Positions 10,265 through 38,454 of a stretch of 64,000 nt of DNA are shown here, in pieces. The notes below the pieces were generated by a model, which saw only the letters and a list, made by a program, of their open reading frames with translations, was not told the DNA's origin and did no database searches. Each line of letters starts with the position of its first letter. Within the stretch, counting starts at the first letter, position 1. A program made the position numbers and the translations under genes. This stretch comes from Yoonia sp. R2331 (lineage in GTDB: Bacteria; Pseudomonadota; Alphaproteobacteria; Rhodobacterales; Rhodobacteraceae): positions 1,426,001 through 1,490,000 of the forward strand of contig NZ_JBGCUN010000001.1 in the NCBI RefSeq assembly GCF_041103235.1, read 5' to 3'.

Positions 10265-11332
10265 TTAGGCGCGGCGGCGGCGTCCGGTGCGGGCGCGGCC
10301 TTCGCCCTCTTTCACGGGCGCGCGATTGAACTTAATCCATTCGCCCCCCGACGGGTCATTGTCGGTCAGGAAGTTGGCGGCGCGAATGGCTTCCATTTCC
10401 TTACCGGCGCGCGGCTTGGTAGAGCCCATGCCGAACATCTGCACAAACGCCTCATCATCCATCCCTTCGGGCAAGATGATGCCAGCGGCTTCCACTTCGG
10501 CCTTTTTCTCGGCCAGTTTCTTGGGGCCGACGGGCAGGGCGACGGGGTTCATGATTGCAGACGTCATGCCCGCGGTCATGGCCATCGGCAGGAAAGCGTT
10601 ATTGATGCCGTGGCGGTTGGGCAGCCCGAACGAGATATTCGATGCGCCACAGGTCGTGTTCACGCCCAGCTCTTCGCGCAAGCGACGCACAAGCGTGAAG
10701 ACCTGCAGACCAGCAGTGCCCATCGCACCAATCGGCATGACCAGTGGGTCAACGACGATGTCATGGGCGGGGATGCCAAAGTCAGCCGCCCGTTCCACGA
10801 TCTTTTTGGCGACAGCAAAGCGCACGTCAGGGTCTTCAGAGATACCCGTGTCGTCGTTCGAAATCGCGACAACGGGCACATTGTACTTCTTGACCAGTGG
10901 CAGGACCAGTTCCAGCCGCTCTTCTTCGCCGGTGACAGAGTTTAGGAGCGGGCGGCCCTCGGCAGCTTCAAGTCCGTTTTCCAGCGCGCCAGGCACGGAA
11001 CTGTCAATGCAAAGCGGTGTGTCAACAATGGCCTGCACACGCTTAACCATTTCCATCATCAAGGGTGGCTCGACAAAGTTGTTGTCGGCATAGCGCGGGT
11101 CTTCGGCCATCTTGTTTGAAAATACAGCGCCAGAGTTGATGTCGAGCACCGTGGCACCCGCGGCAGTCTGTGCCAATGCATCCGCTTCAACCCGGCTGAA
11201 ATCGCCGCGCTCAAGCTCTTCGGCCAAGATTTTGCGGCCCGTGGGATTGATCCGCTCGCCAATCACGCAGAATGGCTGATCAAAGCCGATGATGGCGGTT
11301 TTTGTTTTGGATTCGACAATCGTGCGGGTCAT
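10265..11332 (-). CDS. Methyltetrahydrofolate:cobalamin methyltransferase (pterin-binding part of split methionine synthase)
   Basis: Pterin-binding methyltransferase of the MetH folate-domain/AcsE type, which moves the methyl group of 5-methyl-THF to a corrinoid protein. 355 residues from ATG 11332 (MTRTIVESK). The TIM-barrel motifs INPTGRK, DINSG, CIDSS and NDDTG are visible. The start shares ATGA with the stop of the metF-like gene (11329-11332), so the two are translationally coupled and likely supply and use the same methyl donor. Genetics in the roseobacter Phaeobacter showed methionine synthase split into three proteins of this kind; the corrinoid and homocysteine parts lie at 35502-36203 and 37432-38454. 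The C-terminus ends in an Arg-rich tail (GRARTGRRRRA). Confidence 0.87.
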   Translation of the reverse strand: MTRTIVESKTKTAIIGFDQPFCVIGERINPTGRKILAEELERGDFSRVEADALAQTAAGATVLDINSGAVFSNKMAEDPRYADNNFVEPPLMMEMVKRVQAIVDTPLCIDSSVPGALENGLEAAEGRPLLNSVTGEEERLELVLPLVKKYNVPVVAISNDDTGISEDPDVRFAVAKKIVERAADFGIPAHDIVVDPLVMPIGAMGTAGLQVFTLVRRLREELGVNTTCGASNISFGLPNRHGINNAFLPMAMTAGMTSAIMNPVALPVGPKKLAEKKAEVEAAGIILPEGMDDEAFVQMFGMGSTKPRAGKEMEAIRAANFLTDNDPSGGEWIKFNRAPVKEGEGRARTGRRRRA

Positions 11333-12273
11333 GCGGGTTCCTTGTTGGGGTTGGCAGGCGTGGTGTTTTCGCCGCCTTGGGCAATGGCCCACTTTGCATT
11401 GGTCTTGATGCCGCCCAGCGGGAAGAAGTGGACGTTGGTGATGTTGAAATCTGGGTTTACTGCCTTGTGTGCGGCCAACTCCGTGACGACTTCTGTCGGC
11501 TCATAGGGCAGCAGCAGCTTGGTGACGTCCATCGCGCGCTTTTGCAGCACCTTGAGTGAAGGACCGACGCCGCAGGCAATCGCGAATTTGATCAGTGTTT
11601 GTAACTTGGCAGGGCCCGCGATGCCGATGTGAATGGGCAGCATGATGCCGTTGGCCTTTAGCTCGTCGGCCCATTTGATGATCGGTTGCGCGTTGAAGGC
11701 AAATTGCGTGGCCAGTGCCATCTCGGCGTCAGACGTGTCGTTGAACGCCTGTTTCCAGCGCAACGCATCATTGACGTTGGTCAATGAGCCGTCAGGGTCG
11801 ATGTCCTTGTTGCCCTCGGGGTGGCCAGCGACGTGTAGGTTTGTGAACCCCGCCTCGCCAAAAAGCCCGGTTTCCAAAAGCTGCATAGAGCTGTGAAAAT
11901 CGCCATGCGGGTTTGTCACGCCCCCTGCCAGCAGCAGCGCCTGTTTGACGTCCGCCTCGCCCTGATAGCGGGCGATCCAGTCGGCCAGTGTCGCCTTGTC
12001 CTTAATGATGCGCGCAGGGAAATGCGGCATGACCGGGTAGCCGTCGGCGTTCAGGCGTTTTGCCGTCGCCACCATGTCATCAATCGGTGTGCCCTCGATA
12101 TGGGCGATATAGACACGCGTACCTTTCGGCAGAAGTGACTGGAAATCCACGATCTTTTCGGCAGTGCGAGGCATCACCTCGATCGAGTAGTCTTTCAGGA
12201 AATCAACGACCTGCGGGTTCACATCGACCGAAGGGGCGGCGTCTTTTTTCTTGAGGAACGGCATAAGTGACAC
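11329..12273 (-). CDS. metF: Methylenetetrahydrofolate reductase, MetF family
   Basis: Flavin-dependent reductase family that converts 5,10-methylene-THF to 5-methyl-THF, the methyl donor for methionine. About 314 residues, mostly one TIM-barrel domain (NITNVHFFPLGG near the C-terminus). I prefer the GTG start at 12273 (reading MSLMPFLKKK): AAGGAG stands six bases before it, and it avoids overlap with the upstream gene; ATG 12264 is the next choice. It sits between the small 'virulence factor' gene and the methyl-THF methyltransferase, overlapping the latter by ATGA. The family is divergent from enterobacterial MetF, so the electron donor is uncertain. Confidence 0.83.
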   Translation of the reverse strand: MSLMPFLKKKDAAPSVDVNPQVVDFLKDYSIEVMPRTAEKIVDFQSLLPKGTRVYIAHIEGTPIDDMVATAKRLNADGYPVMPHFPARIIKDKATLADWIARYQGEADVKQALLLAGGVTNPHGDFHSSMQLLETGLFGEAGFTNLHVAGHPEGNKDIDPDGSLTNVNDALRWKQAFNDTSDAEMALATQFAFNAQPIIKWADELKANGIMLPIHIGIAGPAKLQTLIKFAIACGVGPSLKVLQKRAMDVTKLLLPYEPTEVVTELAAHKAVNPDFNITNVHFFPLGGIKTNAKWAIAQGGENTTPANPNKEPA

Positions 12274-12310
12274 GACAGTCTCCTTCAGGCGCTGGGGGAA
12301 GGGCAGGGAT

Positions 12311-12607
12311 TCAGGCCCAGCCATTGTTGGCAATCAGTTGTTTGATCCGGTCCAGATCGTATTCAGCATCAATGCGAGCGACCTCGGCGGCAGCCACATC
12401 GGCGTCACCCCCGTCAACCGCATATGGGTCTGCCTTGCGGAACCCTTCAAGGTAAGCGTCGGATTCAGCGGCTCCCGACTTCATCGCGGCCCGGTCAATC
12501 GCCTGTTCAAACCGCTCTGGTAGGGGCAGTTTGGTGCCGCGCCGACCTTTGCCGACGATCACCTGCGCGGGCATATCGCGCCAGTAAACTATTGTGACAT
12601 CTGCCAT
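12311..12607 (-). CDS. Small 'virulence factor' domain protein, first gene of methyl-folate operon
   Basis: 98-residue soluble protein matching the small conserved family labelled 'virulence factor' in databases; the label is historical and tells nothing about role. The start has a strong GGAGG eight bases upstream (TCGGAGGATTCGATG on the minus strand). The protein begins with a short beta-rich stretch (ADVTIVYWRDMPAQVIVGKG) followed by helices. It is followed after 37 bases by the metF-like gene and then the methyl-THF methyltransferase, so I infer an accessory role in one-carbon or cobalamin chemistry. No catalytic motif is visible. Confidence 0.75.
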   Translation of the reverse strand: MADVTIVYWRDMPAQVIVGKGRRGTKLPLPERFEQAIDRAAMKSGAAESDAYLEGFRKADPYAVDGGDADVAAAEVARIDAEYDLDRIKQLIANNGWA

Positions 12608-34253: not shown

Positions 34254-34661
34254 ATGGCCACCGCCGCCTTTGAAGAGATCGTCGACGACTTTGAGTTTCT
34301 CGATGACTGGGAAGACCGCTATCGCCATGTGATAGACTTGGGCAAGGCAATGGACCCATTAGACGATGCCTTCAAAGTTCCGGCCACCAAGGTTGACGGC
34401 TGCGCAAGTCAAGTGTGGCTTGTGCCCAAGACCGACAATGCAACGTTCCGGTTCCAAGGTGACAGTGATGCCATGATCGTGCGCGGCTTGATTGCCGTCT
34501 TGCGCGCGCTTTACAACGATGTGCCACTGGCAGAGGTCGCCGCAATAGATGCGTCCGCAGAATTGGCCCGCCTTGGGTTGAACGATCATCTGTCAGCACA
34601 ACGCTCAAACGGTTTGCGAGCGATGGTCGAACGGATCCGCGAAACCGCGGCAAAAGCCTAA
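34254..34661 (+). CDS. sufE: SufE family Fe-S assembly sulfur acceptor
   Basis: Takes persulfide sulfur from the SufS cysteine desulfurase and passes it to the SufBCD scaffold. 135 residues; the sulfur-accepting Cys50 lies in KVDGCASQVW. The other suf genes are not in the window, which is common for sufE in this group. The TAA stop overlaps the convergent DUF1638 stop by four bases (CTAA, 34658-34661). Confidence 0.93.
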   Translation: MATAAFEEIVDDFEFLDDWEDRYRHVIDLGKAMDPLDDAFKVPATKVDGCASQVWLVPKTDNATFRFQGDSDAMIVRGLIAVLRALYNDVPLAEVAAIDASAELARLGLNDHLSAQRSNGLRAMVERIRETAAKA

Positions 34662-35284
34662 AGCACGCGCAGCGCTTCGGCCAAATCCCCATATCCGGTG
34701 AACCGCCGTTCGAATGTTAGCCCCATGCGGTCAGCAATCTCTTCTGCTTTTGCGGTCAACTCGGGGTTCTCGGTCTGCGCCTGGTAAACAAGGCGTTCAT
34801 AATTGCCGAAATACATGTCCCGCAGGTCGGGATGCCGATCAAGCCCAAGCGGCCGCCAGACAAAGGCGTCAAACTGGCGCACAAGAAAGTCGGTCAGATA
34901 AAAGGCCGTCATCTCATCTCGCGCTTCAAAGGCGGCGTTGCCTTCAAAAAAGCTGTAACAGTGCGGACCGGCGATCATGCTGACCCCAAGTTCGGCGCAG
35001 GCCGCTTGCAACTGCCCGCCGGTGCCACAGTCGGCATAGACGACAAAAATCTGGTCATAGTCATCGCGGTGTGCCGCAACAGCCGCACGGATACCGGGCA
35101 CGATCTTTTCGGGGTGGTTGTGATAGATTGCAGGCAGACATTGCAGGTCCAGATGGGTCCAGCCATTCATGCTGCGCAGGGCAAGGATTTCATGGGCCAG
35201 CGCCCCACAGGCCAGCAAAAGGATCGGCTTGTCGCCCTTGGGTTCCAACCCGGTGGCTGTCAGGCGCGCATCAAGGTCGGTCAT
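34658..35284 (-). CDS. DUF1638 protein linked to corrinoid methyl transfer
   Basis: 208-residue protein of the DUF1638 family. Cysteines sit in conserved-looking spots: Cys26 (LLACGALAHE), Cys86 (VVYADCGTGGQL) and Cys109 (AGPHCYSFFEG), which could bind a metal or cofactor. The start overlaps the stop of a 52-residue membrane protein by ATGA, which in turn follows the corrinoid protein gene on the same strand. DUF1638 genes also occur beside corrinoid methyltransferases in methanogens and other bacteria, so a role in corrinoid methyl transfer or its reactivation is plausible but unproven. Confidence 0.82.
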   Translation of the reverse strand: MTDLDARLTATGLEPKGDKPILLLACGALAHEILALRSMNGWTHLDLQCLPAIYHNHPEKIVPGIRAAVAAHRDDYDQIFVVYADCGTGGQLQAACAELGVSMIAGPHCYSFFEGNAAFEARDEMTAFYLTDFLVRQFDAFVWRPLGLDRHPDLRDMYFGNYERLVYQAQTENPELTAKAEEIADRMGLTFERRFTGYGDLAEALRVL

Positions 35285-35439
35285 GACCGGCGCGACCAGA
35301 ACCGGACAACAACCGATCCCACCATCGCGCCAATCAAGATATAGACGGGTGGTACACCCAAAGCAGTCAGCGCCCAGATCGTCAGCCCTGCGGCCAGAAT
35401 GACGCCAAATATGATCGCAAAAAAGCGGTTTTGGGACAT
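35281..35439 (-). CDS. Small two-helix membrane protein (52 residues)
   Basis: Short gene starting MSQNRFFAIIFGVILAAG and ending VVRFWSRRS. It has two hydrophobic segments, about residues 6-27 and 30-46, with positive residues at the end. A near-perfect AAGGAGGGACC ribosome site precedes the start, and its TGA stop overlaps the DUF1638 start (ATGA, 35281-35284), which argues strongly that it is translated. It lies 62 bases after the corrinoid protein gene on the same strand. It is too short for simple length cut-offs and easily missed. Function unknown. Confidence 0.78.
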   Translation of the reverse strand: MSQNRFFAIIFGVILAAGLTIWALTALGVPPVYILIGAMVGSVVVRFWSRRS

Positions 35440-35501
35440 GGTCCCTCCTTTCGCGATCAAGATAGGGACCCGGGCGGGATCAAACCAGCCCGGATCGGCA
35501 C

Positions 35502-36203
35502 TCAGGCGGTTGCACCCTGATTGTGTTTGCGTGCGACAAAGGTTTTGGCGGTTTCAACCGCCACCGCAGCATCGCGGCAATAAGCGTCAGCGCCAATGGC
35601 CTTGCCAAACTCTTCATTCAGCGGTGCGCCACCGACCAGCACGATATAGTCGTCGCGCAAACCCTTCTCGACCATCGTGTCGATCACGACTTTCATATAG
35701 GGCATGGTCGTTGTCAGCAGGGCAGACATGCCAAGGATATCAGGCCCTTCGGTCTCCAACGCTTCAAGATAGCTTTCAACGGCGTTGTTGATCCCCAGGT
35801 CGACGACCTCAAAACCGGCACCTTCCATCATCATTGATACAAGGTTCTTGCCAATGTCGTGGATGTCGCCTTTGACCGTCCCGATCACCATCTTGCCGAC
35901 ACGCGGTGCGCCGGTTTCCGCCAAAAGCGGCTTGAGAATGGCCATGCCGCCCTTCATGGCATTCGCCGCCAGCAACACCTCTGGCACGAACAAGATGCCG
36001 TCGCGGAAATCTTGCCCGACGATTGTCATGCCGCCCACCAGCGCCTCGGTCAGAATTCGGTAGGGTTCCCACTTGCGTTCCAGCAAGATATTCACGCCTT
36101 CCTCAATTTCCTCTTTCATGCCGTCGTAGAGGTCGTCGAACATCTGCGCGACGAGGTCTTCGTCATTCAGTTCCGACAGGATGATTTCGTCTTCGTCCGA
36201 CAT
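35502..36203 (-). CDS. Corrinoid (B12-binding) protein of split methionine synthase
   Basis: 233-residue cobalamin carrier equal to the B12-binding module of MetH: a helical cap domain (about residues 20-100) followed by a Rossmann-like domain with the base-off ligand motif DIHDIG (Asp113, His115, Gly118), then LVGGAPLNEEFGKAIGADAY. It would accept methyl from the protein at 10265-11332 and give it to homocysteine via the protein at 37432-38454. Phaeobacter genetics supports such a three-part enzyme. It heads an operon with the 52-residue membrane protein and DUF1638, and is divergent from a radical SAM gene. Confidence 0.9.
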   Translation of the reverse strand: MSDEDEIILSELNDEDLVAQMFDDLYDGMKEEIEEGVNILLERKWEPYRILTEALVGGMTIVGQDFRDGILFVPEVLLAANAMKGGMAILKPLLAETGAPRVGKMVIGTVKGDIHDIGKNLVSMMMEGAGFEVVDLGINNAVESYLEALETEGPDILGMSALLTTTMPYMKVVIDTMVEKGLRDDYIVLVGGAPLNEEFGKAIGADAYCRDAAVAVETAKTFVARKHNQGATA

Positions 36204-36349
36204 GTTTGTCCTCCAAGGCGCAAGGCGCTGATCCTACTTGGCAATTTAATGCTATTTTGTCGCAGAGGTCACGCGACAAATTACGACATTCGTGCAGCTT
36301 GCACCGACCTGTGCTTGCAAATGTTCATGTTGTGTTCTATCCGTGGTGG

Positions 36350-37435
36350 ATGTCAGAGTTTCCTTTGCGCCCACGCTACCGCACGCCGGGCAGGGCCGCG
36401 CAATCAAATCCCGACAATCGGTTTGACCGGCTCCATAGCGAGGCTGTGGATGACGGCTGGTTGCCTCAGGATGACGACATTCCTGTCGCTCGCACCGACG
36501 TGAGCTTGGAACAGGCGCGCAAGGTGATCAGCCGGAATACCTCGCCCGATTTGTCGTTTGACCGCTCGATAAACCCCTATCGGGGCTGCGAGCATGGGTG
36601 CATCTACTGCTTTGCACGTCCCAGTCATGCCTATCTCGGTCTATCGCCGGGCCTTGACTTTGAAACGCGGTTGATTGCGCGGCCCAATGCTGCTGCACAA
36701 CTGGAAAAGGAACTCCGGGCGCGCAGCTATGAACCGCGTACCATCGCGATTGGGACCAACACGGACCCTTATCAACCGATTGAAAAGAAGCATGAGATCA
36801 TGCGGGAGGTGATGCAAGTCTTGTCGGCTTTCAACCATCCCACGGCCATTGTCACCAAAGGCACATTGATCGAGCGCGATATTGATATTCTGGCCCCGAT
36901 GGCCGTGCGCGGTCTATTGCGGGTCGGGATCTCGGTGACAACCCTTAACCCGGCAACATCCCGCGCAATGGAACCCCGTGTGCCGCTGCCCGCGGCCCGC
37001 CTGCGCACGATCCGGCGGCTGTCAGAGGCGGGGATCCCTGTGCGCCTGATGGTCTCTCCGGTCGTGCCGGCACTGACCGATCACGAGCTTGAGGCGATCT
37101 TGGTCGCAGGGAAAGAGGCGGGGGCCGTGGCCGCGTCATCCATCGTGCTGCGCTTACCGTACGAGGTGTCGACGCTGTTTCGCGAATGGGTGGCGTTGGC
37201 TTATCCGGACCGCGCCGCGCGGATCATGGCCCGGGTACGCGAGTTGCATGGTGGCAAGGATTACGACCCGGCTTTTGGCACTCGCATGATCGGGCAGGGG
37301 GAATGGGCGGCCTTGATGCGCAAGCGTTTCAAGATCTGCTGTACCAAACTGGGGCTGGATCAATCCTTGCCTGATCTGCGGACCGATCTCTTTGCACCGC
37401 CGCCACAAGCGGGGGATCAGCTGGCGCTGTTTTAG
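36350..37435 (+). CDS. PA0069 family radical SAM protein
   Basis: Radical SAM enzyme of the SplB-related PA0069/Rv2578c family. 361 residues from ATG 36350 (MSEFPLRPRYRTPGR); an earlier ATG at 36206 would add 48 residues with no family likeness, and the chosen start has only a weak ribosome site. The 4Fe-4S ligands are Cys80, Cys84 and Cys87 in GCEHGCIYC. The substrate is unknown. It sits between the corrinoid and homocysteine methyltransferase genes of the split methionine synthase, an order I recall from Phaeobacter as well, and its stop overlaps the methyltransferase stop (TTAG, 37432-37435). Confidence 0.88.
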   Translation: MSEFPLRPRYRTPGRAAQSNPDNRFDRLHSEAVDDGWLPQDDDIPVARTDVSLEQARKVISRNTSPDLSFDRSINPYRGCEHGCIYCFARPSHAYLGLSPGLDFETRLIARPNAAAQLEKELRARSYEPRTIAIGTNTDPYQPIEKKHEIMREVMQVLSAFNHPTAIVTKGTLIERDIDILAPMAVRGLLRVGISVTTLNPATSRAMEPRVPLPAARLRTIRRLSEAGIPVRLMVSPVVPALTDHELEAILVAGKEAGAVAASSIVLRLPYEVSTLFREWVALAYPDRAARIMARVRELHGGKDYDPAFGTRMIGQGEWAALMRKRFKICCTKLGLDQSLPDLRTDLFAPPPQAGDQLALF

Positions 37436-38454
37436 CCGCGCCGCCGTCCGCGCCGCGCGGCCCGCTTTGGCCCGGCCCCATCTGTACCGTCCGATTCAGA
37501 GCTGAAATCGCCGAGAGCCGCGACAATCGCGTCCAGCGCTGGACGATCACCCTTGGGGCGCGTTTCAAGTGCCTCACGCATGTACCGCAGATGCTCTGGT
37601 GTTGTGCCGCAGCATCCGCCAATGATCGTTGCACCGCAATCCCGCGCAAGCTGCGCGTAATCCGCCATTAGTTCAGGTGTGCCATCATAATGGATATGGC
37701 CGTCGTGATACTTTGGTATGCCTGCGTTGCCTTTCGAAATCAGCGGCTGGCGTGCACCGGCATCTGCCATGCCCAAGACTGTGCGCAACAGGTCCGATGC
37801 GCCGGTACCACAATTAGCACCAAAGCCCAGCGGCGCATAATCCAGCTTGTCCACTTGACGTACCATATCTTTGGAGGTGACCCCCATCATGGTGCGGCCA
37901 GCTGTGTCAAAACTCATCGTGCCACACCACGGCATACCTGCCTTTTCAAAGGCTTCGGCAGCGGCGGCGTATTCTTCAAATGCGGAAATCGTCTCGACCC
38001 ATAACACATCCGCGCCACCGGCCTTCAGCCCTTCGGCCTGCTCGTGGAACATCTCGACCGCAATCTCGTGGGTCAGGCTACCCATGGGGGCCATGATCTC
38101 TCCGGTTGGACCTACAGAGCCTGCAACCACAACTGTTCGGCCCGATGCATCGGCAACTTCGCGGCCGATCTCAGCAGCGACCTTGTTCAGCTCCAGCACC
38201 CGATCGGCGGCATCATGTAGTTTGAGGCGAGAGGCATTGGCACCAAACGAGTTGGTCAGAAACAGATCGCTGCCCGCATCAACCGCGCCTTTGTAAAGCG
38301 CGGTGATCTTGGCGGGTTCCTCAATGTTCCACATCTCTGGCGCGTCACCCGATGACAGCCCCATGTTGAACAGGTTGGTGCCGGTTGCGCCGTCGGCCAA
38401 GAGCCATTCTCGGTCTTGCAGAAGGCGGCTTAGCGCGTTGTCACTTGCGGGCAT
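37432..38454 (-). CDS. bmtB: Homocysteine S-methyltransferase subunit of split methionine synthase
   Basis: Zinc-dependent homocysteine methyltransferase domain, often annotated betaine-homocysteine methyltransferase. 340 residues from ATG 38454 (MPASDNALSRLLQDREWLLA). Zinc ligands are Cys215 in GANCGTG and Cys281-Cys282 in GGCCGTT. It equals the first module of MetH and lacks the folate, B12 and activation domains, which lie in other genes here. The Arg-rich tail resembles that of the pterin-binding partner. Its 5' end overlaps the upstream MprF-like gene by 25 bases. Methyl donor could be the corrinoid protein (favoured from context) or betaine. Confidence 0.88.
   Translation of the reverse strand: MPASDNALSRLLQDREWLLADGATGTNLFNMGLSSGDAPEMWNIEEPAKITALYKGAVDAGSDLFLTNSFGANASRLKLHDAADRVLELNKVAAEIGREVADASGRTVVVAGSVGPTGEIMAPMGSLTHEIAVEMFHEQAEGLKAGGADVLWVETISAFEEYAAAAEAFEKAGMPWCGTMSFDTAGRTMMGVTSKDMVRQVDKLDYAPLGFGANCGTGASDLLRTVLGMADAGARQPLISKGNAGIPKYHDGHIHYDGTPELMADYAQLARDCGATIIGGCCGTTPEHLRYMREALETRPKGDRPALDAIVAALGDFSSESDGTDGAGPKRAARRGRRRG

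Follow-up and report, generated by a model that had tools for sequence, protein, structure and literature searches.

We analysed a window of 64,000 nucleotides from Yoonia sp. R2331 (contig NZ_JBGCUN010000001.1, positions 1,426,001 to 1,490,000), which carries a B12-dependent methionine synthase in pieces. A profile scan of the window has shown that the homocysteine (PF02574), pterin (PF00809) and B12-binding (PF02607/PF02310) modules are three separate genes, all on the minus strand. The corrinoid protein MtgC, consisting of a B12 cap (PF02607) and a B12-binding domain (PF02310), is encoded at 35502-36203, and its first 23 residues (36135-36203) form an acidic extension that we propose as a docking site. 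The homocysteine S-methyltransferase MtgE (340 residues) lies at 37432-38454 (PF02574 209.4 bits, PRK07534 590.8 bits). The pterin-binding methyltransferase MtgD (355 residues, 10265-11332, PF00809 86.1 bits) is found 24 kb away from these two. Between the genes of MtgC and MtgE there is a divergent gene on the plus strand (36350-37435) for a radical SAM protein of the PA0069 family (NF033668 491.6 bits), a neighbour that does not belong to the enzyme.

On the other side of MtgC, also on the minus strand, follow an open reading frame (ORF) for a two-helix membrane protein of 52 residues (35281-35439) and the gene of a DUF1638 protein of 208 residues (34658-35284; PF07796, 111.9 bits against a cut-off of 27). 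The sequence AAGGAGGG stands before the start of the small ORF, and its TGA overlaps the ATG of DUF1638 as ATGA at 35281-35284. The gene coordinates, the 52-residue ORF and the overlap given by the initial annotation of this stretch were thus confirmed in the sequence; the interval that it had drawn (35281-38454) covers the genes from corrinoid to homocysteine module but omits the DUF1638 gene. An Rfam scan of the window found a tRNA alone, and no cobalamin or SAM riboswitch.

The initial annotation had described a methionine synthase split in the way known from Phaeobacter, with no full-length MetH, and this description holds. Since the MetH reactivation domain PF02965 has 0 matches in a genome rated 100 percent complete, we conclude that there is no complete metH elsewhere in it. 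The further statement that reactivation has no counterpart here is correct for PF02965, but not for the function as such: the RamA-like (DUF4445) gene that the annotation suggested looking for does exist. It encodes a protein of 679 residues on another contig, C2 (PF14574 match at G000:C2:179464-180276, 289.6 bits), with a C-terminal ASKHA domain according to PF14574 and an N-terminal ferredoxin-like cysteine pattern that we recognised by eye in the translation. In the following we call this protein the activase. In addition, the genome has five PF06253 matches above the cut-off, that is, MttB-type methyltransferases, any of which could be MtgB.

As judged from these genes, the locus is the known split B12-dependent methionine synthase/glycine betaine demethylase of alphaproteobacteria, with the betaine activity being a prediction for this strain. 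It is another instance of a system already in the literature, because Price et al. 2018 (PMC5764234) and a PNAS 2025 article (PMC12478193) describe it. According to the former, Phaeobacter inhibens has a split methionine synthase of the same type, and mutant fitness makes its DUF1638 protein (PGA1_c13340) and its RamA-like protein likely B12-reactivation genes; the role of DUF1638 is repeated in the latter, where MtgC and MtgD of Ruegeria pomeroyi are also reported to serve glycine betaine demethylation. In these relatives, MtgC and MtgD have been shown to be needed for methionine synthesis and growth on betaine, and the RamA-like protein and DUF1638 for methionine synthesis; mutants of P. inhibens and R. 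pomeroyi that require methionine have been reported. A role of DUF1638 in reactivation, which had been suggested for our window too, is therefore probable; this protein is less unknown than had been assumed, as the proposed role is already in print.

Next, we looked at the ends of the separate proteins. In this genome MtgE, MtgD and the activase each end in a flexible linker followed by an arginine cluster: KRAARRGRRRG in MtgE (37435-37467, minus strand), GRARTGRRRRA in MtgD (10268-10300, minus strand) and GGRRRRRRG in the activase. We used a strict measure of such a tail, at least four arginines or lysines (or arginines alone) in the last 10 residues, and a looser one, at least four arginines within a 10-residue stretch anywhere in the last 25. 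By the strict measure, 75 of the 77 MtgE homologues with a complete C-terminus have a tail if both residues are counted and 74 of 77 if only arginine is (genomes fetched twice are included; 76 of the 77 ends are distinct). Two homologues fall below the threshold, namely one with a subterminal cluster (L341) and one that is 52 percent identical (L260) and belongs to a genome (G046) without a separate MtgC, which is a single case.

For the activase, both strict counts give the same result: a tail was found in 19 of 20 fetched proteins, in 3 of 4 further proteins of the long type and in 5 of 5 from named plasmid records, including Sinorhizobium meliloti and a betaproteobacterium, which gives 27 of 29 (one incomplete end, L169, was left out of the count). 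Among other PF14574 proteins the number is 0 of 10, made up of six of the short type and four of archaeal, clostridial or gammaproteobacterial origin (Fisher test, p = 1e-7). A short-type RACo paralogue is tail-less even in a genome whose long-type copy has the tail (L345, L351). The MtgD proteins have a tail in 8 of 10 cases by the strict and in 16 of 16 by the looser measure. As a background we took 200 ORFs of at least 150 residues from 264 kb of the same genome, a greedy list of longest ORFs rather than an annotation, which missed the MtgE gene; here 10 ORFs have a tail by arginine or lysine in the last ten residues, 3 by arginine alone (one of them is MtgD) and 10 by the looser measure.

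The common partner of these enzymes carries the opposite charge. MtgC has an acidic N-terminal extension in 254 of 255 loci, with a median of 24 residues, 10 of them acidic and 0 basic (181 of the 254 extensions are distinct, as genomes fetched twice were counted here as well). The NF047996 model of MtgC begins matching at residue 15. Two corrinoid proteins of URO-D operons have no acidic extension. The modules are not covalently linked, and for this reason we propose, as the simplest reading of these sequences, that the tails dock the separate enzymes on the acidic extension of MtgC.

There is maybe no link between the tails and MtgC at all: they could bind nucleic acids or membranes, or they could be by-products of GC-rich gene ends. 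Tails rich in arginine and glycine can bind RNA, and the 10 background ORFs that reach the measure by arginine or lysine indicate that charged ends occur elsewhere in this genome. On the other hand, three enzymes with different folds and one common partner all have tails far more often than the background. MtgE tails persist where the GC content of the locus is as low as 38 or 42 percent, and all six arginine codons are used to write them; both the six short-type RACo paralogues and the MtgE homologue from G046, the single case mentioned above, lack the tail. We regard an origin of the tails unrelated to MtgC as a real possibility, although not as the probable one.

Some observations also weigh against docking on the acidic extension. 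In Paracoccus methylovorus the extension of MtgC is less pronounced, and an acidic N-terminus is also found on a haloarchaeal corrinoid protein the activase of which is tail-less. We had further considered whether the MttB proteins could take part, because those of this genome have N-termini rich in arginine and glycine. Here two points count against the idea: by the same count 20 of the 200 background ORFs have such N-termini, and the Pfam profile of MttB starts inside the segment in question. The MttB N-terminus is therefore a weak part of the docking proposal.

In the open-access literature we found no paper joining corrinoid protein, arginine-rich and methyltransferase, and the papers that pair corrinoid with arginine-rich were judged unrelated by their titles and the beginnings of their abstracts. 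Neither arginine nor tail is used in the accessible main text of PMC12478193 or PMC12366255, and the accessible text of PMC5764234 uses none of arginine-rich, polyarginine and tail. While the core of the split enzyme and the proposed role of DUF1638 are already in print, the charged tails are a new lead.

To see with what DUF1638 goes together, we surveyed 198 genomes of the family and 240 genomes of the class. Among the family genomes, DUF1638 occurs in 183, PF14574 in 187 and PF02965 in 31 (30 over the cut-off); DUF1638 and PF14574 are both absent in 6 (G023, G046, G088, G094, G124 and G150; Fisher test, p = 2e-5). In the class, 42 of the 43 genomes with DUF1638 also have PF14574 (p = 4e-34), and PF14574 without DUF1638 was seen in 13, fragments and the short paralogous type being among these. 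The initial annotation had named an occurrence of DUF1638 independent of corrinoid proteins as an argument against its proposal. For the most part this is not what we see, as 79 of 80 named loci have a corrinoid gene within about 6 kb of DUF1638; in the single exception (L250) the record holds only 602 bases upstream of DUF1638. Within the class, 27 of 29 loci have the corrinoid gene upstream of DUF1638. Against a strict need for DUF1638 stand three genomes (G033, G090 and G172) that retain MtgC and PF14574 without a DUF1638 match.

Outside of the alphaproteobacteria the partners of DUF1638 change. In two other Pseudomonadota (L320 and L321) the order is activase, corrinoid protein, methyltransferase of the URO-D type and a distant stand-alone DUF1638, which in L320 is followed by a PAS/GAF sensor protein. 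A haloarchaeal plasmid (L366:5164-9870) has a row of genes annotated as corrinoid protein, ASKHA protein, DUF1638 and MtrH. The URO-D and MtrH operons rule out that DUF1638 is specific to methionine synthase; because of them, it looks like an accessory of corrinoid proteins in general.

Three observations from the same surveys are recorded here on their own account. In three small Rhodobacteraceae genomes (L279, L280 and L282) MtgC comes directly after sufE, and there is no DUF1638 match. A DUF1638-like domain makes up the N-terminal part of five histidine-kinase-like ORFs of 584-846 residues from Pseudomonadota other than alphaproteobacteria (L313-L317); it was confirmed by Pfam in L314, the sole ORF scanned, and is possibly a sensor domain. 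Finally, a record titled Enemella evansiae, an actinobacterium (L188), has a roseobacter-like locus with DUF1638 73 percent and MtgC 89 percent identical, which is probably a mislabelled or contaminated assembly.

What DUF1638 does can be approached through its residues and its predicted fold. C26, C86, C109, H55 and H108 are invariant in an alignment of 25 alphaproteobacterial sequences. All 7 distant stand-alone members that we aligned retain Cys26, His55, Cys86 and Cys109 too, whereas Cys49 is not conserved in them. This conserved set of cysteines and histidines suggests a metal. An AlphaFold2 model (mean predicted local distance difference test score 94.2, predicted template modelling score 0.88) is a compact alpha/beta protein, and a search of the DUF1638 profile against PDB sequences gave nothing below E 0.4. 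We compared the model with known structures by VIA-align, which reports 50 rows, so that other families may lie outside of them. A nitrogenase-like chain ranks first, and nitrogenase/DPOR-like chains fill 11 of the 50 rows, aligned at about residues 15-105 of the model; the aligned region, which may correspond to the cluster-binding domains of these proteins, holds Cys26, Cys49 and Cys86. However, no Z value exceeds 7.1, and the nitrogenase-like chains are on a par with racemases, an esterase, succinyl-CoA synthetases and sugar-binding proteins. For these reasons we take the metal or Fe-S role read from the model as a lead only.

Alternatively, DUF1638 could be a chaperone for cobalamin loading or corrinoid repair, or a sensor, instead of a reactivation protein that acts by electron transfer or a metal. 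The distant DUF1638 domain at the head of histidine kinases and the PAS/GAF sensor next to DUF1638 in L320 would fit ligand sensing, and the accessible text of Price 2018 makes no specific proposal for DUF1638. Its close co-occurrence with the activase and the cysteines and histidines mentioned above speak against this alternative, which we would put at somewhat less than an even chance. The radical SAM protein, in turn, was rejected as a reactivator, because the homologue in P. inhibens was found to be unimportant in minimal media (PMC5764234).

The 52-residue membrane protein had been suggested, like DUF1638, as a helper in reactivation or in the loading of B12; working with DUF1638, it could for instance serve as a membrane anchor. 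Judged by its sequence conservation, the small ORF is a real gene under purifying selection, with homologues at the same place in many relatives: among four same-genus pairs, the ratio of non-synonymous to synonymous substitution rates (dN/dS) is 0.07-0.11 in three and 0.32 in the other. The full protein reaches the cut-off of no Pfam family. Its own family is fast-evolving, about 49-73 residues long, with the pattern MPxxxF...V.xAAGxTxW...R. A homologue is found upstream of DUF1638, between it and MtgC, in 100 of 243 loci, often overlapping the DUF1638 start (up to 31 of these 100 loci supplied seeds for the model of the small protein). This conserved position and the selection on the gene are what speaks for a common function. 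When we searched 26141 ORFs of 30-400 residues with this model, no ORF beyond these homologues and the copy in the window was found at E 0.01.

The distribution of the small gene tells otherwise. Among the 29 class loci there is only one in which the family model detects it upstream of DUF1638; it occurs in at least 85 of the 198 family genomes, a lower bound because just the best candidates were scored in many genomes. Five genomes rated 99-100 percent complete (G023, G046, G088, G094 and G150) have PF02965 in open frames of 910-1297 residues, and their best MtgC match, of 32-37 percent identity, lies inside these same frames. They have neither DUF1638 nor PF14574, and yet the small gene is intact beside the radical SAM gene. 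We excluded G124 (83 percent complete) from this group, as it retains MtgC and has only a fragment of PF02965. In a tree of the radical SAM protein, from which rows with a match under 300 residues were dropped, this state needs four changes by parsimony, at least two of which are forced by well supported branches. The closest pair is G088 and Salipiger bermudensis: in G088 the MtgC and DUF1638 stretches are gone on both sides of the small gene, the dN/dS of which is 0.083, with the reservation that part of the divergence may predate the loss. A gene that is kept intact where MtgC, DUF1638 and the activase are all lost is rejected by us as a reactivation factor, and a role together with DUF1638 is very unlikely. 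Since these five genomes keep it without the corrinoid system, we take the 52-residue protein for a probable bystander, long resident next to these genes rather than a part of the machine.

Apart from this question, we noted a YbjQ-like ORF between a longer form of the membrane protein and DUF1638 in L022, L023, L051, L078, L097, L116, L127 and L140. It follows the longer homologues (72-73 residues) in 8 of 20 loci and was confirmed as PF01906 in L097; L262 has a remnant of it. We did not meet such a gene directly downstream of the small ORF of the window, which overlaps DUF1638 instead, and found no open-access paper joining corrinoid with YbjQ. We also considered R. pomeroyi SPO2161 as the small protein, which is unsupported: the corresponding locus (L237) has a gap of 1310 bases at that place, in five other Ruegeria loci the gap measures 1265-1279 bases, and none of the six has a small membrane ORF listed there.

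Two more genes on the minus strand lie beside MtgD. The first (11329-12333, start uncertain) encodes a MetF-like protein with a weak TIGR00676 match (E 2.6e-4) and no Pfam match at 0.001, a candidate for a divergent methylenetetrahydrofolate reductase; a gene annotated as such a reductase adjoins MtgD in S. meliloti, Azoarcus and two Paracoccus records. The second (12311-12607, PF13769 90.9 bits) belongs to a family named 'virulence factor'. By eye, it resembles the N-terminus of a RamA-like protein of Terrarubrum flagellatum (L368:7695-9977), which is itself annotated as 'virulence factor'. Because of this resemblance, the PF13769 protein may be a C1 (one-carbon) or corrinoid protein, perhaps from a C1/corrinoid gene cluster, under a misleading family name.

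In summary, we suggest the following mechanism. The RamA-like ATPase encoded elsewhere in the genome would reduce cob(II)alamin on MtgC, and DUF1638 would assist it, most likely as a metal or Fe-S protein whose action on the corrinoid protein does not depend on which methyl donor is used. MtgE, MtgD and the activase would dock on MtgC by binding of their arginine-rich C-terminal tails to its acidic N-terminal extension, so that electrostatic docking replaces the covalent tethers of MetH; the arginine/glycine-rich N-termini of the MttB proteins could dock likewise. The 52-residue membrane protein would stand outside of this machine. For the joint statement (the known split system, reactivation by RamA with DUF1638 as an accessory, docking by tails and a bystander membrane protein) we estimate a probability of roughly 0.6 from the sequences at hand. 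A more far-reaching version is doubtful: an electrostatic multi-enzyme, in which MtgE, MtgD, the activase and the MttB N-termini dock in turn on MtgC, and DUF1638 is a metal or Fe-S protein with a nitrogenase-like core that partners RamA on corrinoid proteins generally, from alphaproteobacteria to haloarchaea.

How one small corrinoid protein passes between three or more separate enzymes is the question that split corrinoid methyltransferases raise. Matching charged tails, if true, would be a simple and directly testable answer to this hand-over, and we think that they are the part most worth the attention of specialists. The survey, for its part, narrows the role of DUF1638, which accompanies RamA and corrinoid proteins rather than methionine synthesis itself, and it speaks against the small membrane protein being a component of the machine. 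The host bacteria belong to a group reported to be important for the turnover of glycine betaine in the sea.

Comparison with known systems puts the locus closest to published relatives. It shares with P. inhibens the domain split, a DUF1638 gene adjoining the corrinoid gene, the absence of PF02965, a separate RamA-like protein, and radical SAM and homocysteine genes that have neighbouring locus tags there; the accessible part of that account (PMC5764234) has no mention of the 52-residue gene, the charged tails or the acidic extension. All components of the MtgBCDE system of R. pomeroyi DSS-3 named in the accessible text of PMC12478193 (MtgC, MtgD, MtgE, MTTB, RamA and DUF1638) have counterparts here, and in that text the tails are unmentioned and the words arginine, tail and acidic are absent. 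S. meliloti pSymB and Azoarcus sp. KH32C have the same protein set in the order mtgC-DUF1638-metVF-mtgD-activase, with an arginine tail on the activase and an acidic N-terminus of MtgC. They differ in that their genes form one contiguous cluster while those of Yoonia are scattered, and on that strand their records show no annotated small membrane gene separating MtgC from DUF1638. Methanogen RamA and RACo resemble the activase in the C-terminal ASKHA domain and, by eye, in the N-terminal ferredoxin-like cysteine pattern, whereas the arginine-rich tail was seen in 27 of 29 long-type proteins of alpha- and betaproteobacteria and in none of the ten others mentioned above.

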